From NCBI GenBank assembly GCA_021234155.1, contig JAJEKV010000003.1:18582386-18646385 (forward strand): a DNA stretch of 64,000 nucleotides. Direction: 5' to 3'. The translations under genes were made by a program, and so were the position numbers. Positions within the stretch are counted from its first letter, which is position 1; each line of letters starts with the position of its first letter. This document shows positions 25,045-47,163 of the stretch, one piece after another. The DNA comes from Isoetes taiwanensis (Eukaryota; Streptophyta; Lycopodiopsida; Isoetales; Isoetaceae). The notes under the pieces are model-generated. The model did no database searches. It saw only the letters and a list, made by a program, of their open reading frames with translations, and was not told the DNA's origin.

Positions 25045-25077
25045 GCAGATTTTTGTGCTGCTTTAAAATGTCTACTC

Positions 25078-25671: not shown

Positions 25672-25683
25672 CAGAGTGTCTAT

Positions 25684-25990: not shown

Positions 25991-28607
25991 ACATGTTCCC
26001 TACACTGATTTTTATGGTCTCCATGCTTCCTTACATCTTAGATGGATTGGTTTACCATGCATTTGCCAAAAGTGCAATTTTAGACATTTTGCAAATACTA
26101 GTTGTTTTGTAAACAACATCTCACAGATTGAAAAGGAGAAAGAGGAAGGTGATGATCTTAACCACAGTACACAGGAAATACTGCTCCAACAGGGAAAAGA
26201 AATTCTCAAATCACAAAAGAAACAGATTGATTTTTAGAATGGACAGAATAAAAACACTAATGGCAGTTTCAAGAGAATTCAGAGAAAGAAAAAAATGACT
26301 AATGAAAGGAGCTCTAATCTGATTGCTTCCATTAACTCGAGGAGCCAATTCTCTGGCTACTCTTCTTTGGAACAACCCCCTATTAAAATCTCGATCTTAA
26401 ATAGAGGATCCTTAAGCATGGGTAACACTAGCTCGTGCATTACGGAAAAGGAAAAGATTCCCTCTTCAGTAAAATAAAAACTTGGAGAATATCAGTGTAC
26501 CAGATAACACTGACAATAATAAAAGGTTATTGAAAGGGAAATCTTTAATGGTTGGTGATACTTCTGGTTTGCAGTTTGCACAAAACCCTGAATACTATTA
26601 TAAAAGACAGTTTGGAAATTTTTCAACATCAACAACTCATTGGGAACAGGAAAGCAAATAAGGGAATTGTTATTCATTCAGGAATACAGACACCTGCTAA
26701 GGATACAGCCAAATCTACTCAACAAAACAAAGTGGTTGATATCATTACTGGAAAAGAAAATGAGATTAATTAAAGGTCAGAAAGGTTTTCCTGGTATAGA
26801 TGAGGTTATGAATTTATTAAATCACCAGCTAGTCAAAATGCTTTCATGGGCTGAGCTGAATAGTTTGGCAAGGATCTTGTCTTTTTGTAGGTTCTCTAGT
26901 TTCTTTATTGGAGGTTTGCATTTTGTTGACATATTTTCTTTGCATGATTGCAGCAGGATAGTGGTTCTTTTGTGCATGTATGATTTATTGGGTTCAAACC
27001 CTACACAAAATTCTTTTTTGCATGTACGGTTTATTGGGTCCAAACCCCATACAAATTACTCTTGGCCATGCAGACTGTCCAAATATCCTAATGCATATGA
27101 ACTATCAGATTCTTTCGCTCATTCCTTCTTATCGCTCATTCCTAGCCATTGATCATTGTAATATTCCTTCTCTTATTACTTGCAGCGCATTGTAGACCGT
27201 CCACTAAATCCGTGATGGGGTCAAACTGGCATTTCGACCTCACCATAAGATTTGTTGAACCATTGGTAGAAGTCAACATACAAGTCAACGAGAAACGACC
27301 ATGCAAAAAAGGTGACTTGAACCCAGGCCATATGAGGCAGACCCAAGTTTTTCACAAGCTCATGGCTTTATATGGCATTAGACAGGATGCTTCAAAATAT
27401 GTGTAACACATATCTGTACATTCTTTTAAAATATAGACACGAAATCTGTGTAGCACATATTTCTACAAACTTAATAAAGAAGCATACATTCTTTCAATAT
27501 ATACACAAGCCCCTCTGAATCTGAAGCTAAAACTGTGGACCCTAATATACTTGTCTGCCAACGACAACAACAGCAGGTGTACACTATGCAGCTCCATGTC
27601 TGCACAAATTTGCAGTCACAAATTAACTCTACATTGCAAAATTCAGAATCTCACTTGCACTTTTAGGACAAATGTTAAAGCTAAACTTAAGAGCATGTAA
27701 CATGCAGAAATTTAGAACATCTGTATACATGAAAACCTGCGCCGATGGTCCAAATCTGAATACATGGAAGGTGCTGTTCATATATTCATTGGTGCACACG
27801 CCCGCATTATATTTGCCATGCCCCATTAGAAGGTAAAGTGAGGGGCGGGTAGATGAAGAAAATTTCGACAAAAGGAGAACGCAGATGAGTTGTTGAAGAT
27901 GAAAAGGGAATAAATGGCATCTATAAGACAGAAAACCCTAACTACCAAGAGAGTCTGATACGATTCAAAGATAATGGGAACTAAATAACTGCTCAACAAC
28001 ATCACAACTAAAGAACAAGATATGATTATATTATTTATCTCAGATACACAGATTGGATTGCACGGTTAACCACGCAACCGGGTCCACAGGGTTTTAGCAA
28101 ACATGGCAATGCAACTGGCTTATTGTACAAATCACTGGTTATACTCCACATACCTCATGAGCAAAATTAACTTCCCGCTTATGAAATAAGAAGGATTCTC
28201 CCCTGAATCACAAATCATCAATTAAGTCGGTCAGTAACTTCCTCTCAAGTCCCCAGGTACAGAAGGGATGCTGAATTCTATTGCCATGCTGGGTCCGACC
28301 TCAGGACAAGGTTTTGGCATCAGCCCAACCAAGTATCTCATCAGAAGTATCAACACCTTATATGCTTTTCAGAATCAATGGGAGCCGAAATCGCCCCGGG
28401 CGGTTCTGCAAGTACGTGACGCTGGTGGCTTTTTGTCTCGGATTGCTGCAGCCACAAGAAGATGACTCGGTCCAAATGCCTTTGCTGGATAAGAGGCTGA
28501 TGAGGAGATCGTCGCCGACTGCCCATGTGATGTTGCCGGTGCACTGAAGATCGCCCATCTGCAATCTTTCTTTCAGAACTCCCCGTTAACACGCCGAGCC
28601 AGATTAG
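25991..28607. other. Decayed repeat sequence, no gene recognised
   Basis: Contains coding-like scraps without a family match, such as SGLQFAQNPEYYYKRQFG near 26,565 and GIVIHSGIQTPAKDTAKS near 26,665, broken by stops. It also holds an AT-rich stretch at 27,400-28,250. Cleaner counterpart of 1,190-3,769. Confidence 0.4.
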
Positions 28608-28738
28608 GTAATTTTCATTAGAGACCCATTACATGACAGTAAAGTGCCAGATGAGGCTGGGCGACGATCGGCGCCCGCTTCATCCGGGCGGGGCCGCCGG
28701 GCACTTTACATGCGTAATGGTCTCCTAATGAAAATTAC
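28608..28738. repeat. Foldback (MITE-like) element, 131 bp
   Basis: Starts GTAATTTTCATTAGAGACC and ends in its near inverse GGTCTCCTAATGAAAATTAC, with inner arms AAAGTGCC/GGGCACTTT and a GC-rich loop. The whole unit can fold into one imperfect hairpin. No target duplication could be assigned. Confidence 0.7.
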
Positions 28739-28788
28739 TGGACGTAATACATGGTTGCTTGAAATTACGTCCATTCACATTTTGACAC

Positions 28789-28968
28789 GTGTCTTTTGAT
28801 CTCGGCTATGGCAGAAGAGCTTCGTTGGGGGAATTATGGCGGCAGTAGGTGTCTTTTGATCTCGGCTATGGCGGAAGAGCTTCATTGGGGGAGCTATGGC
28901 GGCACTAGGTGTTTTTTGATCTCGGCTATGGCGGTAGAGCTTCGTTGGGGGAGCTATGGCGGCAGTGG
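28789..28968 (+). repeat. 60-bp direct repeat, three tandem units
   Basis: Units 28,789-28,848, 28,849-28,908 and 28,909-28,968 each begin GTGTCTTTTGATCTCGGCTA or GTGTTTTTTGATCTCGG and contain GAGCTATGGCGGCA. They differ by only a few substitutions. One frame is open through all three (ISAMAEELxWGxYGG), giving a 20-residue peptide repeat, but no surrounding gene is visible. Confidence 0.85.
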
Positions 28969-30081
28969 CTACAGAAGAGAAGCTTAACATCGGGGTCAGA
29001 GATCGGATAAAAGAAACAGTCTTAAGCACATCAAAAGGTCTAAAGCAGAGCGCAAGCATAACCAAAATGGGTAGTTGCAACTGCAGATAGAAATGTTAAG
29101 CCTACATCCGATGGCGAAGATCAGTGATGGTTGAAGGAGGCGAGATTAGAGATGGAGATATTCTAAACTTGATCTTCGAAGTATAAAAAGCATGAATAGG
29201 GACTAAAATCCTCCAAATACAGATGTATAACAGAAAAATGTGAGCTTAATCCAGATAAGAGGACAAGTATCTGTGTTTAAAGCATAAAATCCAATTTTTT
29301 CTCGGCATGTTGAAGCTCTGGGTAAGCACTGCCCGATGAAGGATCTACAACTGATCCAAATCTAAAATGTAGAAACAAATAGAAACAAAACAAGTGCGGA
29401 TTCATAACAGAAGTCCGACGGATCTTGTTCTGCCGCGAGCAGAGAAAACTTGTTGAGGAAACCGCACAAAGTAGAGGAGACTTAGCGGCGCCGCTTCAAA
29501 AATATCAGAGAGTTTTTACGGGATATAAAAGTGGCCAAAAAACCCAGTAATTTCAAGCAACCATGTATTACGTTATATATATCGCTCCTATTATGCTCAC
29601 GTGCCCGTTTCGAAGGAAGAGCCCATTTCCTTATAAAGTTTCCTTGAAAATAGAACCTTAGCCCTTTTTAACCAAAATAGTCGTTGCCCCCTTCTTTTTA
29701 TCTCCACGACATATTGTAACCACCCTTAATTAGTTGCTCCACCTTTACCTTTTATTTCCCATAAAGGTTCCTAGGTATATATATCCCCTTTCAATGGTTA
29801 TCCCTTGCCTTAAATATATTTTTGGGCAAGCCTAGCAATAATACATTAACATGCAATGTTTGCAGTATTTTGCCATGCCACATAACCCTGTCGCCATGGA
29901 CCACTTCCCCCCCGTGCTTGACTCCGTATCAATCCATCCCTTCTCAAAAAAAAGATCGTCCACGATCGTCCAAGTACGCTCTAATTTGGGCCATCCCTTC
30001 TCAAAGTGGTTGTCCCACGTTCAATGTACACCTGAAAGTTTCTCAACCCTGCGAACTCAAGAGACTGTTATATACGTTATT

Positions 30082-30192
30082 GTACTTTCACAGTACCTTA
30101 TATCCATTGTACCTCCACGGTACAGTTGTTATCTTTCATAACTCTGCGGTACTACTTGATTGTATCTCGACGATACAGTATCTCCGCGATAC
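30082..30192. repeat. Four short GTA-N-TAC palindromes
   Basis: Fifteen-base units GTACTTTCACAGTAC (30,082), GTACCTCCACGGTAC (30,109), GTATCTCGACGATAC (30,162) and GTATCTCCGCGATAC (30,178) share a layout of 5-6 bp arms around a short loop while the arm bases vary in a compensating way. Two of them are recognisable in copy 1 near 5,222 and 5,271. Confidence 0.6.
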
Positions 30193-30211
30193 AGATGCAA
30201 GTTTTGTCAGA

Positions 30212-30378
30212 CCTATTGTGTTGCAACCACAATTACCACTCTTCAAAAATATGCATCATGCACTCTTGTTCAAGCCTATTGCGCTGCAACACAATTACTA
30301 ATCTACCAAGAGGCATTCACAATTAGTGCACCATGTTCAGGCCTATTACGTTGCAATCATAATTACCAATCTACCATG
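30212..30378 (+). repeat. 65-bp imperfect direct repeat, three units
   Basis: The phrase CCTATTGTGTTGCAACCAC and close variants, followed by AATTACNAATCTACC, recurs at 30,212, 30,275 and 30,342. Non-coding as far as can be seen. Confidence 0.6.
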
Positions 30379-30578
30379 GGTACACACAAGAAGTAAAATT
30401 TTACTCTTTATTCTGCATAAAGAAAATCAACTTACGAACTTTACCCATAAGTCTGTCCCATAGAAAATAATTTGACATTCCGCATCCAAATTTTGCGTCC
30501 ATATATTTGATGCCTTGTATGTAAAGTCCCTCCAATGCTTATCACTAAGCAAACCTACAAATAAGGTCAAATGTTAAT

Positions 30579-31070
30579 ATGAATGACTTCCAAAGTCAAA
30601 TATTTATACCACGGCCAACCGGCCTCTCAGATCACCACGATCTGACTCCACTATCTCAAGCAAGATGCTTTTGTGGTTCTCCATACTCAGGCTTAAAAGT
30701 TGGAAGTTACACAGGCTCAGATGATCAAGTCAGACTTCTAGAGATGGCAAGAGGTTATATGGCGGGTAGTTCGGCTACTATGACAAACAGAGCCCAATAT
30801 TGTACGACAGGTGTTACTTGTCTCCAGGACAAGTTTTTTCCACGTCAACCCAGCGGTCGCCTTTTTCCTACCATAAGCAGAATTAGAAGTGCTTGCCTAT
30901 CTATGATAAGACACATTGATTTGTATGTTTTCAACTTTGGTTGCTATCATCTAACATCCGTGAAAGCCGCCAAACCCCATTTTGTTAAAAAGTGCAGCTT
31001 ACGGTTTAGGAATTATTTCTCTCTTATTATTACAAGTTTTGGCTTAATTCTTGTGGCCATGAGTTATTGA
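30579..31070 (+). CDS. Unrecognised ORF, 163 codons
   Basis: An open frame starting MNDFQSQIFIPRPTGLSDHH, with a hydrophobic end FSLIITSFGLILVAMSY. It lies just upstream of the LINE fragment and could be part of its upstream coding or an inserted repeat. In copy 1 the frame is broken. Composition and isolation make chance possible. Confidence 0.25.
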   Translation: MNDFQSQIFIPRPTGLSDHHDLTPLSQARCFCGSPYSGLKVGSYTGSDDQVRLLEMARGYMAGSSATMTNRAQYCTTGVTCLQDKFFPRQPSGRLFPTISRIRSACLSMIRHIDLYVFNFGCYHLTSVKAAKPHFVKKCSLRFRNYFSLIITSFGLILVAMSY

Positions 31071-31129
31071 CTATATGAAGTACAATGTCATGTTTTTCTG
31101 GAGTGTTCATAAGTTTATCAACTTCCAAA

Positions 31130-32160
31130 TTTAATAGAGAATTTCTTATACAGAATTTTAGACAAAATTATATGTTAAAATCCTCCAAAATCACCATCTA
31201 TAATGATGCATTCTACTTATATCTACGTAGAGCCAGGTTTCAATCAGCCATTGGGAGCTACTTCAGTATGAAAAACTTCTATAATAAAAGCAGAATAATC
31301 GACTGGGGAATCAAATGTTATCTGTTCAGTGCAGTGGTCGCATCGACGCAATTGTATGGGACTGAGGCATGGGGACCAGGCCTACCAGATAAGAAATGGA
31401 ACAAACAAGAAGGGATCCTTAGACAATGGCATAGACAGGAATTTAAGGTAAGAGAAAACATGCCCCTAACAGTCATGATATATGAGACAGGCCAGAAACC
31501 AATGGAAGTGAGAGCGTGGGAAAGGACTATCAGGTATTTAATAAAAGACAATGCGGAGGTCATACAGGGAAGCTGTCAAGCATTGCAATCAACGAGTCAG
31601 CAAAATCACACATCATCGTAAGCAGTGGATGGTTCAAGGATGTAGCAATACGGACTAGAGAAATGGGGATGAACCTGAGTGATCTAGTAAACGAAGGGAA
31701 ATGGAGTGAAGACTGGGCCGACAAGGCTACACGGGCATGGCTGCAAAAACACGCCAGACCAAAGACACTCTGGCTCATGATAGTTTTCGATCCAGAATAA
31801 CAGATAGGACAACAGATGTATCGAGACAACCTGTTAGAGAAGGCCAGGAGAGACGTACTGGCGAGATTTAGGATGGGGAGCCATGATCTAAGAATTGAAA
31901 AAGACAGATGGAGGAAAATAGAAAGAGAGAACCGGATATGCAGAATCTGTGTCACAGGAAAAGTAGAAGATGAGAACCACCTGCTAAACGAATGTCCAAT
32001 GTATGGAGACGTTAGGAACAAGTACAGAGGCATAAGATGGGGATAGCCAGTACATACCTTAATGACAAGGGTAGACACAATGAAAGACCTGGTAGCAATC
32101 CAGGAAATGATAACCAAGCATCGAGAAGCACACAAAGAAAGAGGGCTGATAATATGAACC
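31130..32160 (+). pseudogene. LINE (non-LTR) reverse transcriptase, C-terminal part
   Basis: Three neighbouring frames give the end of a LINE ORF2: LFSAVVASTQLYGTEAWGPG (thumb/connection), WNKQEGILRQWHRQEF, PMEVRAWERTIRYLIK, then WADKATRAWLQKH, and last CRIC followed by VEDENHLLNECP, the C-x2-C...H-x4-C cluster (zf-RVT) at the end of many LINE reverse transcriptases. The palm with YxDD is absent, consistent with the usual 5' truncation. There is a frame change near 31,560 and a stop at 31,798. The noisy twin is at 6,163-7,237. Confidence 0.75.
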
Positions 32161-32690
32161 ACCCGAGAGGTAAGACATTGATGCCCACAAACGCTCGGCT
32201 AAAAGATGATTGATAACGATGCACCCCCTTACGGCCATGAAGCCGATCATAAGCGGGATGCCGATACTAATAGAAACTAAGAAAAGCCTTCAGAAAAGAT
32301 TACAATATATCAGCGTGATCTGCTAGTAGCGCCCTTTTGGGAGCTCGCCCATGCTACATCAGTCCAAGGGCCTTAGGGCACAAGGGACAATAATTCTATT
32401 CTATTCCATTCTATTTCTTTTTTATCTCAATTTTAGGGAACTTGTAATAATGATTAATATTTTTGCATATAGAGCAAAACTTACTCTATGATGTCCTCCA
32501 AAAAATTATAGTCTGAAAGTTCAAAATGGTATGAAACCAATGCAAAAACAAGCTCATTAAAAACGCAAAAGACATGGTCACAAGAAATCAAGAAAGATTT
32601 TTGTACCTGAGCCCATTACTGGTTCATAGGTCCATTTAAAATAAATAACTTCCTTATGTTAATCGATCTCAATTTGAATTTTGGGATATG
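32161..32690 (+). other. LINE 3' tail and flank
   Basis: Non-coding AT-rich sequence after the LINE stop region, with TTCTATTCTATTCCATTCTA at 32,392-32,411. No clear poly(A) tail or target duplication was found. It ends at the insertion site of the outer gypsy element. Confidence 0.4.
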
Positions 32691-32695
32691 AATAG
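32691..32695. repeat. Target-site duplication AATAG, left
   Basis: AATAG immediately before the left outer LTR is repeated at 52,104-52,108 immediately after the right outer LTR. Confidence 0.9.
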
Positions 32696-33148
32696 TGTAA
32701 CAGTTCTTGGCTGCATCTGAGCCACAAGCCGCATCAATCACACCTTCCTCTGCTACCCTCGGAATCCCTGATTCCCCCACGGTGTTGAGAGCCTTCCTAA
32801 GGCTCTGATAGATGCAAGCAATCAGCAAAAGGGTTTAAAATCGTGATCAAGCCCCAAATCTGTCAGGTCTTTTATAGGGCACCAAATGGCCTTTGGGTTG
32901 GTTCAACGGAAGGCCAACAGGCCGAAATGGAGAATCGAAATGCCTCCCAGCTTGATTGGCCCCTCCAGGGCCTGAATCGATTGCCCAAAGGGCCAGGCCG
33001 TTGGCTGCCCTGCGCCATAGCCATCCTCGATGGCTTTTGATTAACCCATCCAATGGGTTGTTGCCACCTCATCAGTTTTAAGAGGTTTTATTTCTATAGC
33101 TAATGTTTTATTTGGATTGCCCCCTTTTGACCCATTATGTTTATAACA
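32696..33148 (-). repeat. Outer element 3' LTR (left)
   Basis: 453 bp, TGTAACAG...TTTATAACA on the plus strand, matching 51,431-52,103 apart from the 217-bp insertion in the latter. On the minus strand it has a TATA box, CTATAAAAG at 32,869-32,877. Confidence 0.93.
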
Positions 33149-33168
33149 TACCTCCCCCTTTTAAATCC
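33149..33168 (-). other. Outer element polypurine tract
   Basis: The minus strand reads AAAAGGGGGAGGTA directly before the 3' LTR start TGTTATAAAC, the expected priming site for plus-strand DNA synthesis. Confidence 0.8.
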
Positions 33169-33395
33169 TTGGTCCCCAAGGATTGTGGATGTAGGTGCAT
33201 TTAGAAAACCCTTTCCTTAGGTCACCCTGTGACCACGGTTTCTTCATCTAGTCCTTTCAGAAACCCGTTCCCTGTATCACCTTGTGACCATGGTTTCGTA
33301 GCTCATAGTTTTTGGACGTCCCTACTTGCTATCCCTGATGCAAGTCCTCAAATTTTACTAGGTAACTATCCTCCTATTAGACCCTTCTAATCTTT

Positions 33396-33971
33396 TCATG
33401 GCCTCCACGGGTTCTGGGTCAGGTGAGGATTTTGCTGCACATACTCTTCACTCTCCCATGTGGCCTCGGAGAGTGATTGACCTCGCCACAAGATCAAGTA
33501 TTCTGCAATATTTCTATTGCGCAGCTTCCGAATGCGAGTGTCTAGAATCGCATCAGGAGTTACCTCCGAGCTAAGGGCTAGGGGTATTGTTGCTGGAGCA
33601 ATCACATTGTCCGTGGACAATATTGCTTTCTTGAGTTGGCTTACATGGAATACAGGATGCACTCCTATTCCATCTGGGAGCTCCAACTCATATGCTGTCT
33701 CATTGATCCTTCTTAACACTTTGAAGGGTCCAGCATATCGGGACGTCAATTTGGGAATCTTTCCCTTGACTAGTGGCTTCAAGGTTCCAACCTTGAGTGC
33801 CGAGGGGTAGACTATTCGTAAGAAGGCGTACTCACCTTCCTTGAAGGTTACCTCTCTACGATGTTTGTTGGCATTTAGTCTGGCTCGATCTTGAGCCTTC
33901 CTTAGGTTTGCCCTACACTGATACAATATGGCTTGCATATCTTCCAACATATGGATAGCCGCATCAGTTTT
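33396..33971 (-). pseudogene. Outer element integrase C-terminus with chromodomain
   Basis: A minus-strand frame with MLEDMQAILY, NANKHRREVTFKEGEYAFLR, the GPFKVLRRI GPY/F motif, PVFHVSQLKKA, and a chromodomain-like end DTRIRKLRNRNIAEYLILWR then ATWESEEYV. It is the continuation of the integrase at 47,164-47,872; the two halves were separated by the inner element. Frame and family order fit exactly across the GTTTT duplication. Confidence 0.9.
33967..33971. repeat. Target-site duplication GTTTT, left of inner element
   Basis: GTTTT directly before the inner 5' LTR is repeated at 47,159-47,163 directly after the inner 3' LTR. Confidence 0.92.
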
Positions 33972-35593
33972 TGTGACGGTCCAGGGGAATATACGCCATA
34001 AATACGTATATTCCTGGATCCGTCACCATACAAGTCTATCTTCATAGCCTTGTATACCATAGATTGTGGCACTAGGGGGCATGGCTAAGTTATTCTCATA
34101 GCTTAGCCAACCATAGGTTAAGCCATTATCCACGTGGCCTTAACCTATTGGGGCACCGCCACACAGGACTCACCCGATTGGTGCCACGTGGCATCCTAGG
34201 TGGACCTAACTTATATAGGCATAAACCCTAACCCTAGACCTCTTTTCCAGCCCTAGCACCCCGAGACTCACCTACTTGTTCGAAACCCCGTTTCGAACAT
34301 CGTTCGTTGTGGCATAGGCTGGGCAAAGCTGGTGCAGAGGGTAGACCCGCTCTTGGAGGAGGAACAGCAGACTTGTGAGTCGAAGACTATGGAGGCGCCG
34401 GACTGGAGGGAGAGCATCAGGAGCAGGTATGTAGGATAGTAGTTGTGATAGCTCATCTGGAATTAGCAATCCAGATGTGCTAGTATTTTGTATCTAGAGT
34501 AGAGCCATCCTAGAACCCATATTCAACATCTTGAACCCTAATCAAGGAACCCTAACCATTAGTTAGTTGTATGATTAGGTTAAGATGTTCTTCTTATGAT
34601 TATTCTCATGATGATTATGTGATGATGGTTGATCATGTTTGCTCCTCTTGTATTGGGAAGGGGGTAGAGACCTAGAGCCATATGTAGTATGCTCCTAGAG
34701 TAGATCCCTTAGTTCCTATTAGTTGCGGGCACGTGCATAGGAGCCCACCGGGCTATGGAGGCTATGATATGACTCACACCGGATACTTGGGGCTAGAGGG
34801 AAAGTGGAGGGAGGATCCCCGCCGAGTGGGGGCTTTAGGGGGATCCCATAGTGGGCTAGGCTTATGGTCGGTCACTGCGTGTGGGGCGAGCATGGGTCCG
34901 ACACCTCCGGGCAATGGTGTTGCCTCGCCTCTCGAAAGAGCTGCAAGGGAGGGCTTGGCTCTCGTTTTGGGGGTTCAGGCCGGCAGTAATCGTGTGTCAC
35001 CATCGATTCTCTAGCCCCACGGCACCTCTAGACCCCGGAAGGGGAGATGCAGCCCTTCCCGCCTCATCGGACGGGGAGATGCACCCGAGCGGTCTCGATG
35101 GGTGATGCCACGAGGATTTGCGTGTCAGGAAGGCTAGAGTCCCTGGCCGAGCCCGATCTAGCCCATGCAAAGTATGCAGGAGGGGCGGATGGAGTGGTCA
35201 ACCCTAGCCATTGTTCTATGCAGCCCTCGCCATTGCCATGACTCGATGCGCTCTATCTTGAGGCCTCCAGCCCTGGCCGGTCCACCCTCCCACGAAGTCC
35301 GAGGGGTAGGAGCTCTCTGTTTTATGGTTCGTGATTATCATCTATGCATTGGTTTTATGGGTGCACTACCCTTCGAGGTAGTAGTTGTATATGTTGATGC
35401 TAGTTGGACGACGTGTTATCGCTCACGTTATAGGAGCCCATAGGGGCGGGCACGCATAAGACACCTTCAGTTCCCTTCCCGCACTAGGGTCACCTCGAGA
35501 GCGGGATAGGCGAAGGGCCCATGCGGTTGGCGAGCCGGATGGGGATTTCTGCCGAGTGTGCCGGTGCCCGTATGTTTAGCGTGGGGCGTCACA
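33972..35593 (+). repeat. Inner element 5' LTR (1,622 bp)
   Basis: TGTGACGG...GCGTCACA, matching 45,512-47,158. Large blocks (for example 34,020-34,260 against 45,580-45,820) are nearly identical. Differences cluster at CTG/CAG/CCGG-like places and short runs. Confidence 0.95.
34131..34236 (+). promoter_or_regulatory. Inner LTR promoter: two G-boxes, TATA box, telo-box
   Basis: CACGTG at 34,131 and the palindrome CCACGTGG at 34,184 lie upstream of TTATATA (34,211-34,217), followed by AAACCCTAACCCTA (34,223-34,236), a telo-box-like motif typical of plant core promoters. All four are preserved in the 3' LTR (CCACGTGG at 45,722, TTATATA at 45,749). bZIP or bHLH binding to the G-boxes is inferred from the motif only. 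Confidence 0.6.
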
Positions 35594-35594
35594 A

Positions 35595-35606
35595 TGGTAT
35601 CAGAGC
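35595..35606 (+). other. Inner element primer binding site (tRNA-iMet)
   Basis: TGGTATCAGAGC starts one base after the LTR end, identical to the canonical plant initiator-methionine tRNA primer site. Confidence 0.93.
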
Positions 35607-36061
35607 GATGTTCTTGGTTGACCAAGAACTAGCAATCGACCATAACCATGAAGTAGTCTAACAGGCCTATAGGGGTGTGGAATAAACATTCCACCATCGA
35701 ACCACATGAAAATGGGGGAAAAATTTTTCTCCTAGGTAGTGGGTCGAATTAGGCTAAGTGTTAGACGAAGATTTGAGGGAGGCAAACGAATTTTCTAGTA
35801 AATTTGAGTGAAAATTATGCATCTGCATCAAATTTCACCTAAAATGGGTCGAAGAATCATGCCAATCGGAAGCCCGGTGAAAAATGGCAAAATTCATAAA
35901 TTGCACTTGAACCATTAGGAAAATTCGAAATTAAAGATAATATCAATTAATATAGGTTAATATATACATTAATAGTTAAATAATTAATTAAATATCTTGT
36001 AATTAATAGGGGGGCTAATAAATAGGGGTAATTATGGTAGGAGAATATTCCGTGGACCCTC

Positions 36062-36162
36062 CTTTTTAAATATCTCGACACCTCATTTTCTCTCTCCAAC
36101 CCTTCACCTCAAACCTTCTCTTGCTTGACCCTTCACGTCACCCGTTTTAAGAACCATAAGAT
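36062..36162 (+). promoter_or_regulatory. Possible internal promoter and leader of the H3-like ORF
   Basis: TTTTTAAATAT at 36,063-36,073, then a pyrimidine-rich leader (CATTTTCTCTCTCCAACCC) and CACGTCACC, end at the ATG. This is TATA-like spacing of roughly 90 bases to the start codon, but it could equally be part of the ordinary retrotransposon leader. Confidence 0.35.
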
Positions 36163-37263
36163 ATGGCCCGCACCAAACAAACTTACAGGAAGATGGACCA
36201 AGACCGACCCTCTCTCCATGGCGCAGTGAGCAGGCGACATGTGAAGAAGATCCGGAACACCTCCTCACCCAAGAAAGGGGAAGAGGAGCCCCCACCAAAG
36301 GCGGCGGCAAGCAGCGTGGAAGAAGCCTCATACCATGACCGAGGAGAGTCCGGCACCGTTCTCCATCGGCAGGCACTTTGAGGGACCGGGCGAGACTCGG
36401 GCCATTTCGAACCCCCCGGACACCGAGGTAGAAGAAGAAGGGAGGAGCAAAGCAAAGCAGGTGGAGGGGGGGCCTTCGGCCGGCCCCAAGGAAGAAAGGT
36501 AAGGAGAAGGTGGGTCGGAGTGGCTCTGGAGGAGAGGGCCGCCAGAAGAAGCTGGAGCCGGAGAGGGAGCCGAGGGAGGAGGAGAGGAGAACGAAAGAGA
36601 AGGAACGACGGCCTCACGGACCACAAGGGCTGCTATTCAAGAGCCACTCACGGAAGAGGAGCCGCAGTGGAGGCAGAGGGGGAGGAGGAGGAGGGGCGCA
36701 GGACCCGACGCGAGGCCACCCTACCCCAGTGGCCGGAAACCACCTAAGGTGGTGAAGAAACAGAAGGTAGGGGAGCGGGCATCGCAACAAAGCAGGACCG
36801 GAGTTCAAAAGAAAGATGGTGGTTTTAAGGAGTACCTTCGTCGCTGGACGAGGTACAATGAGTGGTATTGCCAGCAGGAGGTCCAGCGCATCGTAGTGGG
36901 GGGCAGGCCAAAGAAGAACCAGCCCAAGCCACCCCCACCGAGGCCAGAAAAACCCGAGAGGGTTCACCACGGAGCCGGCAAAGACATACGCCCGGGTGTT
37001 TAGGAAATTCGGCACTTCCGGATGTGCACTAATCTCCGATAAGGAAGGCGCTTCGAGGCGTCTCCTTAGGGAGGTTTTGCGGTTAGATTCCGGACGGACT
37101 CTGTGGTAACCCCTCTAATGACCCGGGCTCTGCAAGAGGCCTCCGAGGCAGAGCTGGTGCAGCTCTTCGAGGAGGGAAACCTCTGCGCCATCCATGCTAA
37201 GCGGGTAACCCTTATGCCTAAGGATATCCACTTGGCATGGAGGATCCGCAGGGAGAGGCCCTA
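36163..37263 (+). CDS. Histone H3-like protein encoded by a retrotransposon
   Basis: Starts [10 protein letters not shown], the H3 tail with R2, K4, R8 and K9 kept and Ala7 changed to Tyr. About 230 residues of charged Glu/Lys/Arg/Gly/Pro-rich linker follow. The C-terminus is an H3 histone fold: EIRHFRM (alpha-N), RRLLREVLR (alpha-1), then [18 protein letters not shown] (alpha-2), CAIHAKRVT and [16 protein letters not shown] (loop 2 and alpha-3), ending at TAG. The last 50 residues are almost the canonical H3 sequence, not the diverged CENH3 type. Frame changes occur near 36,380, 36,500, 36,750 and 37,000-37,090, so the protein is about 365 residues only if these are errors. A role in chromatin targeting or packaging of the element is inference. 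Confidence 0.85.
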
Positions 37264-38056
37264 GGCCTCAAATTTTGTAAATTTTGTAGAAGAACTAAAA
37301 TTTTCATGTAATTATGTTCCTCATTAATATAAAAGTTCTTTCCCTCTGTAAAATTGTTCTATGCTTGAAATGTAGAAAATAGAACCCAATTGTGGTAGAA
37401 TTCTTCATAGAATGTCTAGAAATACCCCAGAAATCATGACTACAACAAAATTTTGGCAAAAAAATCATCAAAAATGCAAAAAATGGGGGCCGGTCGGGTG
37501 AGGCGCCAATGGCCTCTCAAGGTCCCCCCGGCTGGCGTTGTGGCGGATTCACCCGCCTACCCCCAAAATCTTGCTTTTAGATGTCAGTTTTGCACAAAAT
37601 AAGTTGCTAGTTAGGTTAGAATTGGCCCAATTAGCCATATTAGCATCTTCAAATTTCCTAAAATGACCAAAAATTGGCCCAAAACAGGCCAACAGGGAGA
37701 CCGGCTTAAACAGCGTCTGCGTCGGCTGACGCTGGAGGCCATCCATGGATTCACCCGGGTCGGGCCATCTTTGGCCCAAATTAGCCAAATTTGATCCAAC
37801 AAATTGCCATGTAGTGTTTCTTGCTTTGTTTTGCTTAAGTTTGCACTTCATGGTAGTTCATTTGGACACCCAGAGCCATAGAACCAAGGTCGTCTTAGCT
37901 AACACCTTTTTGCACAAATCCCGAGGTCACCCATAGTCTATAAAAATAGGTCTCATTTGCCATTTTTCTTCCTACAGAACTGCTCCCAGCCCCTTAGGCG
38001 ATTTTCTGACCCTCCACTGATCTTTGCAAGCCATTTTCTACACCCTTTCCTGCTCA
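37264..38056 (+). other. Spacer with TATA promoter for the next ORF
   Basis: AT-rich 3'-untranslated-like sequence after the H3-like stop (ATTAATATAAAAG at 37,323), then a unique GC-rich segment. TATAAAA lies at 37,939-37,945 in the context GTCTATAAAAATAGG, 112 bases before the ATG of the next ORF, with pyrimidine-rich sequence between. This resembles a complete host-type promoter inside the element. Confidence 0.45.
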
Positions 38057-39601
38057 ATGGCGCCCAGCAAATTTGAGAGATGGTACAATGTCGCCAGACC
38101 ATATCCATGTGCTTCGATGTAGATCAAGCCTTCTCGTGTTTGATCACTTGTTTGATCTTCACGCAACCTTGACTAGAACACCCTACTACCGCAGACATTA
38201 TGTGCAGTATGACCCGCGCAGTCCTGCCTTGGGAAGTTAGACTGCCTCCTAGGGGAGGGAATTGGGTTTCCCTTGAGACACTTACCCAAGCTTTAGGTCG
38301 AGAGCTGGCAGGATCCAGAGGCAAGAAGCAGCTATGGGATAGGACTAGGACCATGCCGATTACATGACCCCGAGACATAATAGGCACAGTACCTTTCAGC
38401 CCGGGCTGGCCCTTGCCCTCTTCATGCATTATAAGTCAATCAACAAAGTAGGGGAACCCTCTGTTCAGCCCTTAGACTTAGCGCCACTCGATACCCGTAG
38501 GGCCCAGGATCAAATCCTGAATATAGAGTCCTCCGCCTACGAATATACTACGGACGACGGCGTGGGGCGCACCATCTCTACTGCATCCATGAAGACTACG
38601 GCGGCTGGGGGAGCGAACCCGTAATGGGGAGAGCAGGGAGGCAACAAGAATGCGGAGATATGCGCCGAGACATGACGACGACGTGAGAACGGACATCGAT
38701 CCACTGGATCGGCATCACGGCCTTGTCGCCGATAGTCATCGACGAGGGGAGGAGTACATTTTGCAAATGACATCCTCAATCATCCCTCTCGTCGTGAACG
38801 AAGGGTCTTCGAATCGACGAGCTCTTGGGTATGATAGCACGGGAAGAGCATGACATCATCGACTACTCATACCAGAGATCCCAAGGAGGCCGGGCGGAGA
38901 GACACTCTTATCTTTGGGGAGACAATGTCGGATATAGCAACCTATCGGCAGATAAGAGAGATCTATCGACACGGCAGGGAGCCTATCATCTCGAGAGGAG
39001 GAGTTCCAGCAGTCTGAGCACACTCTACAAAACGAGGGGAAGGGCCCAAGCTCAAGCCGACCAGTTCGAGCGGGGAGCATGAGGGAAGGGTCCAAAGCGG
39101 ATTAACTTGGACAACATAACCAAAGATGTGGAGAGATCATGAAGACCTTATGGCGGTGGATGCCTACGAAGCAGCGCTCAAAGGAAGGGCTTTGGATCGC
39201 GAGGCGTAGGGAAAGGGGTGCAGCTTGCCCGCTACTATCTTCCAGCCCTCAGCCAGGGGCAAATGATAGTCTTCCACAAGGAGTTCAGCCCAAGGGGGGA
39301 AGAATCCGTGGCACTTCTCATAGCGCTTTCGGGCTTCGAGCAGCACTCGAAGATATACGCCCATGCCGATCACATCATTCTTTTCAACAAGGCAGTCGCG
39401 CTCCATTGCCTCGACTTTGCGAGAGGACACCTGAGGGATGCAACACTTTCAGTGGTAGCAGCAACAGCACCAGAACTCCCGGAACCAGAGATGGCCCGAG
39501 CACTTGAAGGAAGATCAACGAGGAACATCTTGCGCAACCTCGGCAAAGGCCTCCGATTCAGGGATGTCAAGAACTTCTTCAGGCTTTCGGGAGGGCACTG
39601 A
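38057..39601 (+). CDS. Second accessory ORF of the inner element, unknown function
   Basis: Starts MAPSKFERWYNVARPYPC. Coding-like pieces continue in shifting frames: DIMCSMTRAVLPWEVRLPP, LALFMHYKSINKVGEPSVQP, YQRSQGGRAERHSYLWGDN, then the longest open piece at 39,218-39,601 (ARYYLPALSQGQMIVFHKEF, SGFEQHSKIYAHADHIILFN, NLGKGLRFRDVKNFFRLSGG, stop). About 500 residues if one protein. It is upstream of gag and lacks CCHC, protease or RT motifs. No family is recognised. An AT-rich tail (39,602-39,790) follows. Confidence 0.5.
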
Positions 39602-39789
39602 ATAATTGAAAATTTTTCTTAAGTTTGTGCTAAATGTTTTTTGTACCCATTGTGCTAAGATACATCTGCTTTATTATGTAATCCTTATGTATTAATGACT
39701 ATTAACTGGTTTGTCAATGTAAGGCTTTGTATGATTTCTTATAACTAAAGATAATTCAATTTGCAAGTAAAATTGATCAACATCTAACC

Positions 39790-41190
39790 TAAATAAAATG
39801 TATTGATGATCAATCCTTGCAGCAAGGAACTCAAGTCAGGATCCCAAGATCGGCCGACCCGCATAATTGGGTACCAAGGAATTTGTTTGGCGGGGAACAA
39901 GAAGATGTTGGCGAGGATATGTCACGCAGAGGCGATCAACGCAAGGTTGGTGCGGATGAGGAATCAGATGCAACACCTCATCAATCGGGCGACACCTCTC
40001 ATGAATGCAGGAAGATGGTCACCCACCTCCACCTTGTTTTCGGGGTGGTGACTTAAGTCCCTCAAAGAAAGAAGGGAGGGCAACCAGGGAACGGGGGGAT
40101 AGGAGAAGGAAGAGGAGAGCCAGAGCCCATCATCATCCAGCCAATGCTCATCATCGACGGTTCTTGAGTGAGGACAGCTCTAGTTCTGGTCCCGATCGAC
40201 ACACCTAAGCGAGGGGAAAAGAGCAAGAAAGACGGGTGATTATCGGGAAAAAGGTGGATAGTGCTATGAGCAATGTATGGAAGACAAGAAGCTCGGCCGG
40301 TTCCTCGGGGAAGGACAGGTCGGGCATGGAGGCTGAAGCATGGCTTGATGAAATGGAAGAGTTTGGCAACTCATACGGTATGAAAGACAAGGACATAGGA
40401 AAGTTGCTACAGCTAACCTTATTGGACCGGCAAGGATCCGGTGGAAGGGATATGCTAAATCCAACAAGCCGAAGAGGAACAACCCGGGTTTAAGACCTTC
40501 AAAGAAGGCTTTCCGCGAAGCACTATGTGCCAAGGTCTCATACTAGTAGACAGATCCAGCGATTTTTACGGGTTGAATCGGGGTAGCTTATCGCTGGCTA
40601 AGACATACGAAGAATTTATGAGGCTCGAGGCTGAATGTTCCCGGAGTCTCGAGAGAAGCAAGCCGTGGATACTTACATTGAGGGGTTGAAACAGAATATC
40701 AAGAGGCTTGTTAGAGCAATCAACCCGAAGTCGATCAAGCTTGGTAGAAGATAAAGCTATAAGTTTGAGGAGGCACCGGCAACTCCAAAGCAGAGAATCA
40801 ACCTTCGGGGGTAAGAGTTCGAGGCGTGATCGGGACAATATCGGGGGTAAGCAATCAGCAGACTACACCATCGTGGAGTCAGCAAGACAAGGTAAGGGTC
40901 AGAGCAAAGCTTTTGGGGACCGTAAACCCACGTAACGCGATCGGGGCAGGCGCTCTTAAAGCGTTTCCCTAGGCTGATCTGCCGAAGGAAAAGAGACAGG
41001 AATGCATTGAGAAGAAGTTATGCTTCCAGTGCTTCCGGCGGGGGCACGGACACATGATTGTCCATTTGTCATCTGCGGTCGGCTTTGGCGAGAACTCTTG
41101 GATTGGGACTCCCCAACGAAGCGGGCGAGGGCGATGACCAGCGGGGAGGGCCCGCGACTTCATAGATGGTGAGTGTCACATATGTGCAAA
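39790..41190 (+). pseudogene. Inner element Gag
   Basis: Begins after an acceptor-like CCTTGCAG at 39,815-39,822. A Retrotrans_gag-like stretch follows around 40,325-40,490 (EAWLDEMEEFGNSYGMKDKD, KLLQLTLLDR), then YEEFMRLEAECSRSLER, a basic region, and a zinc knuckle CFQCFRRGHGHM near 41,025 whose final Cys is lost to a frame change. The frame is broken repeatedly. Gag would form the particle and bind the RNA. Confidence 0.7.
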
Positions 41191-41540
41191 CATTGAGTCA
41201 GATGAGATAGAGAATCAGTCAACTGTCATCGCGGCTGATGGGATCATAGATAGTAATCCTTATGTAGTCCTCATAGATACAGGTAGCTCTCATAATTTTG
41301 CATCTCCTAGATTGGCTGCTCTAATGAAGAATAAGGTATTGAAGTCTAAGCCAAGGCCAGTAGCTATGGCCAACGACGCCATTCGGCACACTAAGGGGAG
41401 GAGGATCACCTTTGACATAGACCTTAGTGGGGCTAAGTGGCCGATGGGAGCGAAGTCATGGACATCGGAAGATATGATTTGATAGTGGGGATGGAATTTT
41501 TGAAGCCGACCAAAGCCATGATTGATTGCGGCCATCGAAT
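41168..41540 (+). pseudogene. Inner element aspartic protease
   Basis: The frame CHICANIESDEIENQSTVIA runs to VVLIDTGSSHNFASPRLAAL, with the active-site DTGSSHNF at about 41,276. LIVGMEFLK follows near 41,485 as the second hydrophobic flap and helix signal. One frame change lies near 41,450. Confidence 0.8.
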
Positions 41541-41734
41541 GAAGTCACCATGGCCCGGCACCAGACGAAAGCAAGTTGATAGTGAAAGGTAAGAAGCTAG
41601 ATTCTCCTATGCGTGTGTATTTCGTTGAAGCGACTAAGGAAGAGTATAGAAAGGAATAAGGTGGACTACATCTTGAGGATGGAATCGGTCGAGCGCAAAG
41701 GCGAGGATGGAAGTGACACAAAGGGAAATCACTT

Positions 41735-42330
41735 GCCCAGGCAGATAGCAAGGCTTATTTCAGAGTTCAAGGATGTATTCCCGGATGAAATCCGGCAGCT
41801 GCCACCTTATAGGGGTGTAGAATGTGAGATCACATTGGCTCCAGATCTGAGAAGCCTACCATGAAGGCACCATATAGAATGAGCATCCCTGCAATTGGTC
41901 GAGCTCAAGAATTGCGCAGGAATTGCTCGAGCTTGGATTTATAAGGGCAAGTGTGTCTCCTTTTGGAGCACCTATACTCTTCGTAAAGAAGAAGGACGGG
42001 AGCTTAAGAATGTGCATAGACTATCGCCAGCTCAATAAGCAGACGATAAAGAATAAGTATGCATTGCCGAGGGCAGATGACCTAATGGATCAGCTACAAG
42101 GAGCAAAGGTATTCTCTAAAATCGATTTGAGGTCAGGATACCATCAGATAAGAATTAAAGAAGAGGATATCCATAAGACCGCTTTCGTAAGCGGTATGGT
42201 CATTTTGAGTTTCTGATAATGCCCTTTGGATTGTCGAATGCTCCCATAACATTTATCGCCTTATGAGCGATATCTTGAGAGACTTCTTGGATGAGTTTGT
42301 TATCGTCTTCTTCGGCGACATCCTAATCTG
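41735..42330 (+). pseudogene. Inner element reverse transcriptase
   Basis: LISEFKDVFPDEI, then [56 protein letters not shown] and MPFGLSNAP, the standard gypsy RT order. The catalytic box reads VIVFFGDILI where the family has xxDD, so one aspartate codon is changed or miscalled. Frame breaks lie near 41,860-41,925 and 42,200. Confidence 0.85.
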
Positions 42331-42639
42331 ACAAGTCCCTTGAAGAGCATTGTCGACATCTCGGGGAAAGTGTTAGAAGTTGAGGCGTCATCGGTTGTAT
42401 GGGAAGCTCTCTAAGTGCCACCGCAATTGGTAGGGTGGAGTACTTGGGGCATGTAGTAACATCGAGGGAATCTCCACAGATCCATCTAAGATTGAGGCAA
42501 TAGTTGATTGGCCAGCCCAAGGAATGTGGCGTATAAGAAGCTTTCTCGGATTGGCGGGATACTACGAGAAAGTTCGTGAAGGACTTTGCTAAGTGGCGTC
42601 CCCTCCAATGGGACCTCACTAAGGCCAACAAGATTAAGG

Positions 42640-43080
42640 ACTGGCTAGCCATTGGTTAGAGAAAGTCCAAGCTTCTTTTGAGAAGCTTAAAGAGGCCTTA
42701 ACAACGGCACCAGTGCTTGTCCTCCCGGATCCGAAAGTAAGGATAAGTTGGTAGCAACAGATGCAAGCAAGATAGCGGGGCGATCTTGATGCAAGAAGGA
42801 AGGGTAGTAAGCCTACGACTCGAAGAAGATGAACGGCGCCGAAAGCAACGCTACCCAACCCATGATCGAGGAGCTGCTAGCCATTGTCGGGGCATTGAGG
42901 ATATGGAGGCATTATCTGTGGGAAGGAAGTTTCGGTTGGATCTTGATCACCGAGAGCCTTCAAGTATCTTTTCACCCACCCTCCTCAACTTAAGGCAAAG
43001 GAGGTGGATGGAATTCCTTGAGGAGTATGATTTTGATATTATATATAAGCCTGGTAAGCTTAATGTTGTGTGAGATGCCC
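42640..43080 (+). pseudogene. Inner element RNase H
   Basis: LVATDAS near 42,750 (first catalytic Asp), an EELLAIVGALRIWRHYL-like piece near 42,870-42,915, then FLEEYDFDIIYKPGKLNVV and a DALS-like end near 43,075, in several frames. Typical gypsy order between RT and integrase. Confidence 0.7.
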
Positions 43081-43249
43081 TCTCCGAGGAGACCATTTCG
43101 GGACAAGGGACGCATTGTAATGCGATTTCCACTCTTTTCAGTGAGTTTGGCAAGAAGATTGAGGAGTCCTTGCCAACCCGATGTGGACTTCAAGGAGGTA
43201 TGGGAAAGCCTTTCAAGGAAGCCGAGCGGATAAGGGCGGGAAGCCTTCA

Positions 43250-44648
43250 AGCATTATAAGAAGGAAGGCAACCTGTTGTACCACAAGCATAAGTTGTGTG
43301 TGCCGAATCTTGAGGGGTAAGGAAGTTAATTCTTCATGACACACATAACAGCCCAATAAGCGGGGCATCTTGGCTTCATGAAGACATATTTCAAGATTCG
43401 GAAGTAGCTACTTCGGCCGGGAATGAAGAGGAGATAGCTGCATATATTGGGATTGCCGGTTATTGTCAAATTGGAGACCAAAGGCGGAACAACTTAGGAT
43501 TAAGGTGCTTTAGAGCCATTGGGGTGCCAAATGCAAAGTGGGAGGTCATAAGCATGGATTTCATCACAGGACTCCCTAGAACTCTTGAGGCAAGGATGCA
43601 TTGATGGTTGTCGTAGATAAGTTATCTAAGATGGCACATTTAGGTGCCTTGCAAGGCAACCGGACACCGCATTAGACCTTTGCCAAGTTATTTGTAAAGG
43701 GAGATTTTTTAGACTCCATGGCATGCCTCGGGAGATAATATCGATAGAGATTCTAAGTTCATGAGTGCCTTTTGGCGGGGATCTCTTTAGCACCATCCGC
43801 ACGAAGCTCTCCATGAGTGCGGCATATCATCCCCAAGCGGATGGCGGACGGAAAGGGCGAATCGGATCATTGAAGACATGCTTGAAGCTATGTGTGGAAC
43901 AAGCGGTCCAAGTGGGATGAGTACATTCACTTGGTGGAATTCGCCACAACGATTGCCAAGCGGGAGTCATCTCGGATGTCGCCTTTCATGGTGAACCACG
44001 GCTACGGTGCTTAACCCGGATACCGCACAATCGCGTGTCCAAGGTAGAAGTGTCCCAGCAGATGTTAGGGGATATGCAAAGAGCAGCCTAGTAGAGGAAG
44101 TAAGGGGTTATTTATTGGCAGCAAGAAGTCGGGGGTAAGAGTGTAGCCGCATGCAAGCGGACCGTGGGGAGTTTAAGGTGGGAGATACCGTTTGGTTGAA
44201 GATCAAGGTGAAGCAAGCCAAGCTGCGGATTGGGAGCTGCAAGAAGCTTGCCCCTAGGTGGGCTGGGCGTTCAAGATTTTTAGAGAGAGTGGGCTCTCAA
44301 GCCTACAAGTTGGATCTTCCGGCCCATCTTAAGGTCCACAAGGTCTTCCACGTAAGTTTATTAAAAGGCACAATCCTAACCCACGAGGAGGTTTTGGATA
44401 CTCCAACCTTGTTGGAAATGACGGAGGAGCAAGTAGAAATAGTGCCCGAGTTACTTCTTGATAAGTCATTCAAGAAGACTAGGAGGTCTCAGTTCCTCCA
44501 ATATTTGGTTAAGTGGAAGCACTTACCCGTGGAAGATGCGACATGGGTATTGAAGCAAGATTTGGAGAAGCAATACCCAGAGTTTATGAAGGAGTTTGAT
44601 GGGCGAGTCGTCTCCGACTTGGTCGACCCCGACTTGCCAGGTGGTTAG
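43250..44648 (+). pseudogene. Inner element integrase with C-terminal chromodomain
   Basis: The core shows KWEVISMDFITGLPR (first Asp), DRDSKFMSAFW (second Asp) and TERANRIIEDMLE (Glu) in different frames. From 44,151 an intact 165-codon frame gives FKVGDTVWLKI, PRWAGRSRFLERV, the HKVFHVSLLK motif and a chromodomain FLQYLVKWKHLPVEDATWV ending at 44,648. Chromodomains of this class are predicted to read methylated histone H3 tails and steer insertion into heterochromatin. In this element the same genome also carries an H3-like ORF. Confidence 0.88.
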
Positions 44649-44730
44649 CTAGTATGTTGTTAGTTAGCTTTGAGCCTGGCGCATGCATTCTATTTAGGAG
44701 GGTGCATGTGCCAGAACCTTGGATCGTGTG

Positions 44731-45047
44731 GGCGATGATGGGATACGCCTTTAGGGCATTCTCTAGGCCACACGCACCAAGAGGTGCGCATGACCATTAG
44801 GGTCATGCGAGTGAGGAATGAGGCATGGTGGGCAATGATGGGACATCGATCGGATGATCTCTATGCCACGATGCGGGGTACGCACACCTGGCCGTAGGAG
44901 GGTCATGGTGAAGCTTAAGTGATCATGCGCGATGATGGGATCGTGAGGCGTTCCTCAGCTGAAACCCTCGGGGCATGATGCCTTTGGGGTGTACTCGATC
45001 AGGGGGATCGTGTACAAGGTAGCACTCGATCATGGGCAATGATGGGA
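44731..45047 (+). repeat. GCRATGATGGGA repeat, four units about 100 bp apart
   Basis: GGCGATGATGGGAT at 44,731, GGCAATGATGGGAC at 44,831, GCGATGATGGGAT at 44,929 and GGCAATGATGGGAG at 45,035. The flanks share CATGCG/GATCATG words. The spacing is 98-106 bp in the untranslated region between integrase and polypurine tract. Confidence 0.75.
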
Positions 45048-45499
45048 GCATCTTAAATGATCCCTAAGCTCAAATCCGAAAGGGCCATGATCTTGGGCGG
45101 GGTAGTAGGACAACCTTGAGCCAGTAGTTCGGCTCAAGGAGGTAAGGGGGGTGGTCCCCTAAAACCACAAATTATTAACTAAACTAACGTAATGTGCTCC
45201 TTTTGCAGGCAAGTAGAAGGAGGACTTCAACGAGGAGCGCGTTACGAGAAGATAGGGGGAGCCATAATTAGATTATGAACCCTAATAACTCTTATAATAG
45301 TATTTTGAATTATTATAAGAAATAACGATGTTAAGGCTATATAATTTTGTATAAGTACAAATATGGCCTAAAATTTTGACTTGAACTAATAAAAAAAACT
45401 TGATTGTTAAGCTAAGCTAAAGGTTATGACATGTTGTTGTTTTGCAGGCATAAGGTAGGTTCGTCACCTTAGCGCAATGCCGAGGACAAACATTGTCCC

Positions 45500-45511
45500 T
45501 AGAGGGGAGAA
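45500..45511 (+). other. Inner element polypurine tract
   Basis: TAGAGGGGAGAA ends directly before the 3' LTR. Confidence 0.85.
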
Positions 45512-47158
45512 TGTGGCGGTCGGGGAATATACGCCATAAATACGTATATTCACGGATCCGATCACCATACAATCTATCTTCATAGCCTTGTATACCATAG
45601 ATTGTGGCACTAGGGGGCATGGCTAAGTTATTCTCATAGCTTAGCCAACCATAGGTTAAGCCATTATCCACGTGGCCTTAACCTATTGGGGCACCGCCAC
45701 ACAGGACTCACCCGATTGGTGCCACGTGGCATCCTAGGTGGACCTAACTTATATAGGCATAAACCCTAACCCTAGACCTCTTTTCCAGCCCTAGCACCCC
45801 GAGACTCACCTACTTGTTCGAAACCCCGTTTTGAACATGGCTCGTTAGGGCATAGGCTGGTGCAAAGAGCTCTGGCCAGGGGTAGACCCGATTCTTGGAG
45901 GAGGAACAACTGACTTGTGAGTCAAGACTATGGAGGCTTGGGATGCGGAGGGAGAGCATCAGGAAGCGGTATGTAGGATAGTAGTTGTGATAGCTCATCC
46001 GGAATTAGCAATCGGATGTGCTAGTATTTTGTATCTAGAGTAGAGCCATCCTAGAACCCATATTCAACATCTTGAACCCTAATCAAGGAACCCTAACTAT
46101 TAGTTAGTTGTATGATTAGGTTAAGATGTTCTTCTTATGATTATTCTCATGATGATTATGTGATGATGGTTGATCATGTTTGCTCCTCTTGTATTGGGAA
46201 GGGGGGTAGAGACCTAGAGCCATATGTAGTATGCTCCTAGAGTAGATCCCTTAGTTCCTATTAGTTGCGGCTGTGCATAGGAGCCCACCCGGGCTATGGA
46301 GGCTATGATATGACTCAAAGACTGGATAACGGGGCTAGAGGGAAAGTGGAGGGAGGATCCCTGCCGAGTGGGGGAGGGGGATCCCATAGTGGGCTAGGCT
46401 TATGGTCGGTCACCGTGTGGGGCGAGCATGGGTCCGACACCTCCCGGGGCAATGGTGTTGCCACCGGGCCTCCTCGAGAGCTGCAAGGGAGGGCTTGGCT
46501 CTCGTTTTGGGGGGTTCAGTCGGGTACGAATCGTGTGTCGCCACGATTCTCTAGCCGCCCACGGCACCTCTAGACCCTGGGAAGGGGAGATGCAACCCTT
46601 CCTGCCTCATCGGACCAGGGAGATGCAACTTTGGAGCGGTCTCGATGGGTGATGCCGCGGGATTGCGTGATCAGGAAGGCTAGAGAGTCCCTGTCGAGCC
46701 CGATCTAGCCCATCCGCAAAGTATGCATGTGGAGGGGCGGATGGAGTGGTCAACCCTAGCCATTGTTCTATGCCAGCCCCTCGCCATTGCCATGACTTCG
46801 GTCCCGCTTCTATCTTGAGGCCTAGCCGGTCAGTCACCCTCCTTACGAGTCTGAGCCGGGGTAGGAGCTCTCCTGTTTTATGGTTCGTGATTATCATCTA
46901 TGCATTGGTTTATGTGCAGTGCACTACCCTTCGAGGTAGTAGTTGTATATGTTGATGCTAGTTCTGACGTGTTATCGCTTCCGCTGTTATAGGAGCCCAT
47001 AGGGGACGGGCACGCAAGACACCTTCGTGTTCCCTTCCCGCACTAGGGTCACCTCAGAGTGCGGGATAGACGAAGGGCCCATGCGGTTGGCGAGCCGGAT
47101 GGGGGATTTCCTGCCGAGTGTACGGCCGGGCGCCGTATGTTTAGCAGGGAGCGTCACA
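45512..47158 (+). repeat. Inner element 3' LTR (1,647 bp)
   Basis: Starts TGTGGCGG and ends GCGTCACA. It aligns throughout with the 5' LTR and carries the same G-box, TATA and telo-box set. GTTTT follows at 47,159-47,163. Confidence 0.95.
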
Positions 47159-47163
47159 GTTTT

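Follow-up and report, generated by a model that had tools for sequence, protein, structure and literature searches.

The window analysed here, a stretch of 64,000 nucleotides from Isoetes taiwanensis, holds at positions 33972-47158 a Ty3/Gypsy LTR retrotransposon of the chromovirus type, whose LTRs, primer site and reading frames all lie on the plus strand. The element is flanked by a target-site duplication, with GTTTT present on both sides (33967-33971 on the left and 47159-47163 on the right), and its 5' LTR (33972-35593) and 3' LTR (45512-47158) are 91% identical. One base 3' of the 5' LTR lies the primer binding site TGGTATCAGAGC (35595-35606), which we take to be of the type complementary to the plant initiator-methionine tRNA. 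At a distance of 568 bases from the primer site begins an open reading frame (ORF) related to histone H3 (36163-37264). The initial annotation of this DNA had placed an H3-like ORF inside an LTR retrotransposon, between primer site and gag. The ORF is indeed located there, with the correction that a second extra ORF, ORF2 (38057-39601), intervenes before gag.

The remaining coding pieces have the order gag, protease, reverse transcriptase, RNase H and integrase C-terminus. Gag (40248-41245) is broken, and its pieces by themselves gave no Pfam match; it was located by tblastn with the gag of a second copy of the element (copy 2, described below), a 438-residue open stretch that matches PF03732 (E 1.1e-16). 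Pieces of an aspartic protease (41138-41479; PF08284, E 5.7e-05), a reverse transcriptase (41878-42213; PF00078, E 1.5e-12) and an RNase H (42747-43070; PF17917, E 4.6e-08) were recognized by their Pfam matches. The integrase C-terminus (44139-44645) combines an SH3-like domain (PF24626, E 8.9e-18) with a chromodomain (PF00385, E 1e-11), the domain that characterizes Ty3/Gypsy chromoviruses, and none of the window pieces scanned had a Pfam match to the integrase catalytic core. By its domain content, the H3-carrying element is a chromovirus. It resembles plant chromoviruses, with the clade assigned from that content, in domain order, integrase chromodomain and primer site, and differs from them in the region from primer site to gag, which holds the H3 ORF and ORF2 as additions. 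A hAT transposon with an H3-like gene (H3L) was also considered and rejected, as the element has direct LTRs and a retrotransposon pol rather than terminal inverted repeats and a hAT transposase; no hAT domain was among the Pfam matches of the window pieces scanned.

The closest relatives of the integrase-chromodomain region (P0121-P0124, at 65-68% identity) stem from short environmental contigs rather than named plants. On the minus strand, 33396-34022 and 47252-51472 look by eye like another chromovirus, split by the insertion of the H3 element. A 538-residue open stretch at 60888-62504 resembles, again by eye, another Gypsy gag with zinc knuckles.

The H3-like ORF opens at 36163 with the canonical H3 start, ARTKQT included, continues through a charged linker and ends in the H3 fold. 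It had been described as an ORF with H3 sequence at either end, and both the H3 start and the alpha2-alpha3 end are present, but no single frame crosses 36163-37264 in the window copy, where the parts of the ORF are spread over several frames with stops between them. The C-terminal part (37070-37264) is unbroken through loop 1, alpha2 and alpha3 to the stop. With its last 48 residues, the best H3 match in the PDB has an E-value of 3.5e-17, and 173 distinct PDB sequences match at E <= 0.001 (the best 60 of the 173 are listed). The Pfam Histone model (PF00125), proposed earlier as a check, matches alpha2-alpha3 with E 1.5e-16 and a score of 61.2 bits (cut-off 26.4). Judged by these matches, the H3 identity of the ORF is far above chance, and the lack of a histone hit that the initial annotation would have taken as refutation did not occur. 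Structure prediction of the C-terminal part, the companion check, returned a mean pLDDT of 55, too poor for a fold search, and is uninformative.

At about 367 codons, the ORF is 2.7 times as long as H3 and has about 230 codons beyond the canonical protein, in agreement with the linker of about 230 residues and the nearly threefold length first reported. A protein search with the whole ORF, from which lengths below 0.55 of the query were excluded as candidates, gave 1180 proteins at E <= 0.001, and the best 120 of these 1180 cover 24-43% of the query, which is the histone part. A separate search with the linker (805 candidates) found no relative, and neither the linker nor the N-terminal region of L040, one of the long H3 proteins described below, had a relative in IMG/VR. 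The centromeric variant CENH3 is marked by a longer loop 1 and a diverged tail. It was rejected as an identity for the ORF, as the alpha2-alpha3 part of the window copy aligns without gaps through loop 1 to residues 75-134 of host H3 and the tail opens with ARTKQT.

From the window's own assembly we sampled 260 kb as 26 stretches, each 10 kb long, and tblastn found the H3 ORF in one of the 26, L003. This stretch belongs to a full second copy of the element, spanning L002, L003 and L027, with the H3 ORF at the same place as in the window. The 5' LTR of copy 2 runs from L002:8694 to L003:336, its 3' LTR (L027:263-1572) has an internal deletion, and its target-site duplication is AATAA, differing from the GTTTT of the window copy. 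Copy 2 looks young, the identity between its LTRs being 99.0% in an alignment of 721 columns and 95.5% in one of 599. The initial annotation had allowed for the outcome that other copies of the family lack the ORF; the sole other full copy examined has it.

The H3 ORF of copy 2 starts with MARTKQT and includes a 301-residue open stretch that comprises the linker, alphaN and alpha1; the start is separated from this long stretch, and the C-terminal part lies in another frame. AlphaN and alpha1, poorly visible in the window copy alone, can be seen here, and this half of the fold matches H3 on its own, with E 1.9e-05 in the PDB and, at a score under the cut-off, E 2.6e-04 in Pfam. For the window family, then, the two halves of the full fold alphaN-alpha1-alpha2-alpha3 are both seen, never within one frame. 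ORF2, broken in the window, is a single open stretch of 521 residues in copy 2 (L003:2798-4363). It has no match in Pfam or NCBIfam, its best PDB match (E 0.69) is not significant, and its predicted structure, with a pLDDT of 34, is too poor for a fold search. The block L003:6013-7396 of copy 2, covering protease to reverse transcriptase, runs in the opposite direction to its equivalent in the window copy, 41256-42639.

The differences between the two LTRs of the window copy lie mostly near CG and CHG sites, where 22% of columns differ against 4% elsewhere, a ratio of 5.4; under simulated uniform change, the ratio had a mean of 1.32 and a maximum of 1.85 in 60 runs. One run of 259 LTR columns is identical. 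The Isoetes taiwanensis assembly was made with Nanopore v9.4.1 flow cells (PMC8566536). Given this sequencing method and the clustering at CG and CHG, many of the frame breaks are likely to be base-calling errors at methylated sites, with real mutation also possible. As the LTR differences cluster in the manner of base-calling errors, LTR ages taken from the assembly are unreliable. Elsewhere in the window, 1-10356 and 24784-35370 are 86% identical, with differences enriched near CG and CHG. Both contain an LTR at the corresponding site, the first of them truncated at 10356; these stretches would represent either a segmental duplication or one locus assembled twice.

Over 52 codons of alpha2-alpha3, 13 synonymous and 2 nonsynonymous changes separate the window copy from copy 2 (dS 0.45, dN 0.017, omega 0.04), a split with P = 7e-7 given the proportion of sites that are synonymous. 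An automatic alignment of the H3 fold over 55 codons gave an omega of 0.09, compared with 0.10 for the best reverse transcriptase piece and 0.17-0.68 for other pieces of pol, gag and ORF2, many of which cross frame breaks. The H3 linker had an omega of 0.20 in the automatic alignment and 0.18 in a 55-codon block whose last codons are out of register; the comparison that gave this block yielded no alignment for the N-terminal piece of the H3 ORF. These values show purifying selection on the H3 fold at the level of codons, estimated for the window family from two copies and about 55 codons. The two copies also share residues that differ from host H3, and therefore the constraint acted within the element lineage.

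We further compared residues whose roles in contacting DNA, the second H3 (H3-H3') and ASF1 are assumed from canonical H3. DNA-contact residues are kept at all nine covered positions in copy 2 and at three of four in the window copy, where R83 is replaced by V. In both copies, the H3-H3' residues are kept at six of six positions and the ASF1-contact residues at seven of nine.

A related chromovirus on the minus strand of another sampled stretch (L006; C3:1-10000) is 74-84% identical in matching pieces of pol. Its first ORF has the linker; it seems to start with MAKPNRSGS and ends just after ALREI, without the H3 fold. This one copy could represent either a loss of the fold or a family without it. 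Because the linker is present there and the fold is not, the fold is, on the evidence of this ORF, not required by every relative of the element.

We also searched the whole genome (1,658,258,908 bases in 1110 contigs) with Pfam Histone, which gave 8705 first-look candidates, of which 150 were scored. Fifteen of the 150 rows start at profile position 2, and the eight of these that were inspected are all canonical H3. In the remaining 135, the match begins at profile position 4 or beyond, past the canonical start; five of these rows contain an internal stop, 55 have an open frame of at least 300 residues and 36 one of at least 400. The list of 150 favours good matches, and some of the 135 rows may be ordinary genes.

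Five of the 135 rows (L036-L040) were picked for their long open frames, all unbroken, of 485, 494, 469, 456 and 477 residues, respectively, the end of L038 being set by the chosen cut. All five have the same layout, in which a common N-terminal region of about 330 residues is followed by a stretch resembling the H3 tail and then by the H3 fold in complete form. In the four of them scanned with Pfam, PF00125 matches with E-values from 2.6e-41 to 2.6e-43. Between L036 and L037, the fold has an omega of 0.015 (38 synonymous and 3 nonsynonymous changes) and the N-terminal part 0.15; between L038 and L039, the values are 0.08 (4 synonymous and 1 nonsynonymous) and 0.28. The five proteins keep 9 or 10 of 10 DNA-contact residues, all six H3-H3' residues and 8/9, 8/8 or 9/9 ASF1-contact residues. 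Their alignment with the H3 ORF of the window family is confined to the H3 part, and their N-terminal region is unrelated to the ORF2 of that family.

The surroundings of L037 point to an LTR element here as well. The 850 bases upstream (L041) include sequence resembling the LTR of the window family, with 66-68 columns at 95.5% identity to L002, 92.5% to the 3' LTR of the window and 89% to its 5' LTR, and a further 148-149 columns at 80-82% identity (L027, L022). After an LTR-like end stands TGGTATCGAGC, spotted by eye, which lacks one base of the primer site; from there to the first methionine of the L037 ORF the distance is 610 bases, compared with 568 in the window. An ungapped scan of L041 for the 12-base primer site found nothing under 3 mismatches. 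Since the LTR-like sequence and TGGTATCGAGC precede L037, a related LTR element probably carries H3 of a second architecture in the equivalent position, a context seen for L037 only.

Carriage of H3 by a transposon has precedents in fungi. In Pyrenophora tritici-repentis, 26 H3L genes have been described on a hAT DNA transposon (PMC3538342). As reported there, the system resembles the Isoetes element in its extra H3-like ORF, a further ORF of unknown function and many copies, and the insertions in the H3L tail can be likened to the Isoetes linker; in contrast to this fungal element with terminal inverted repeats, ours is a plant LTR retrotransposon in which the H3 linker is hundreds of residues long and purifying selection was measured. 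In Pseudocercospora fijiensis and its relatives, H3 was likewise captured and multiplied by a hAT transposon, and all amplified copies except the original are described as inactivated by RIP (PMC6710886), whereas the Isoetes fold is constrained. Among plants, Ty3/Gypsy elements of Phalaenopsis carry an ORF for an AlkB-type RNA demethylase (PMC9289625); they too are Gypsy elements with a captured host domain, enzymatic or chromatin-related, in an extra ORF, and differ from ours in cargo and host. The same study screened LTR elements of 121 angiosperm genomes, with no lycophyte among them, for extra domains, and its main text names no histone domain, the word 'histone' appearing there twice and neither time for an extra domain. 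The bracovirus histone CvBV-H4, whose N-terminal tail has 38 extra residues, is incorporated into the nucleosomes of the host and changes expression in a tail-dependent manner (PMC9145170). Like the Isoetes protein, it is a histone carried by a parasite and lengthened at the N-terminus, but it is an H4 encoded by a polydnavirus-derived wasp gene.

The initial annotation knew of no retrotransposon with this cargo. Within the PMC literature, most subscription papers lying outside our search, we likewise found no LTR retrotransposon with a histone. The statement must nevertheless be set beside the published H3 genes of fungal hAT elements: transposon-borne H3 is already known, and what is new here is its presence in an LTR retrotransposon, its unusual architecture and the measured constraint.

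Our preferred explanation, which we hold with moderate confidence, is that a chromovirus lineage captured a host H3 gene and kept it as a selected protein, a long H3 variant that would act in nucleosomes for the element. It builds on the H3 homology, the location within the element in both full copies examined, the purifying selection and the retention of most contact residues; from these, we infer expression, nucleosome entry and a benefit to the element. The host gene would have been taken up by the chromovirus lineage and retained under selection, its product in the window family being a long H3 variant composed of the H3 start, the charged linker and the H3 fold. Made during the element's cycle, this variant would use the chaperones that normally serve H3 to pair with host H4, and would enter nucleosomes. 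There, the long N-terminal region and the altered tail may shift chromatin to the element's advantage. Copies of the element might be silenced less effectively, or chromatin might be tagged for the machinery of the element itself, which includes the integrase chromodomain. The chances seem to us evenly balanced for a broader proposal, that Isoetes LTR retrotransposons evolved and diversified H3s of their own, in at least two architectures that share one position after the primer site and under histone-like constraint, and so may supply a nucleosome component to host chromatin.

We take nucleosome entry as the most likely role because no part of the protein is more constrained than the fold. 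The fold, including its DNA and H3-H3' contacts, would not be needed by a soluble decoy that stays out of nucleosomes and lets the element escape silencing by engaging histone methyltransferases, chaperones or readers through its H3-like tail and linker. The window ORF does keep ARTKQT, RK at the K9 position and seven of nine ASF1-contact residues, as such a decoy might, and we regard this role as unlikely, though worth keeping in mind. The H3 protein might instead pack the nucleic acid of the element, for example together with host H4 on cDNA in particles or before integration, a role consistent with the position of the ORF on the gag side and with the nucleosome-like particles reported for giant-virus histones (PMC11500106). 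The Pfam scans of the element's pieces revealed no H4, H2A or H2B as a partner, and host H4 would have to be recruited into cytoplasmic particles, which makes packaging improbable in our view.

Alternatively, the captured gene could be an unused passenger in decay. The broken frames of the window copy, the frame changes in copy 2 and the absence of the fold from L006 would fit this. Yet an omega of 0.04-0.09 between the copies and 0.015 in the other family speaks against decay, as do the unbroken long frames in 55 of the 135 scored rows (in a list that favours good matches) and the concentration of LTR differences at CG and CHG, a pattern expected of sequencing errors; we consider a passenger gene a poor prospect. 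A host H3 pseudogene inserted in the window copy alone, or a chimera of the assembly, would have nothing but the broken frames in its favour, and it was rejected, with a probability that we put close to nil, on account of copy 2, where the same ORF stands at the same place between a different target-site duplication.

Chromatin silencing is a main defence of hosts against retrotransposons, and chromoviruses already read histone marks through their chromodomain. If an H3 variant is under selection in an LTR element, as our preferred explanation holds, such a parasite could also write into nucleosomes. The finding calls for caution in counts of histone genes, since 135 of the 150 rows scored in this genome begin past the canonical start and the five fetched all proved to be long fusion proteins. 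The element is also a source of naturally occurring H3 variants whose N-terminal regions are very long, and it may represent a path by which histone variants enter genomes.
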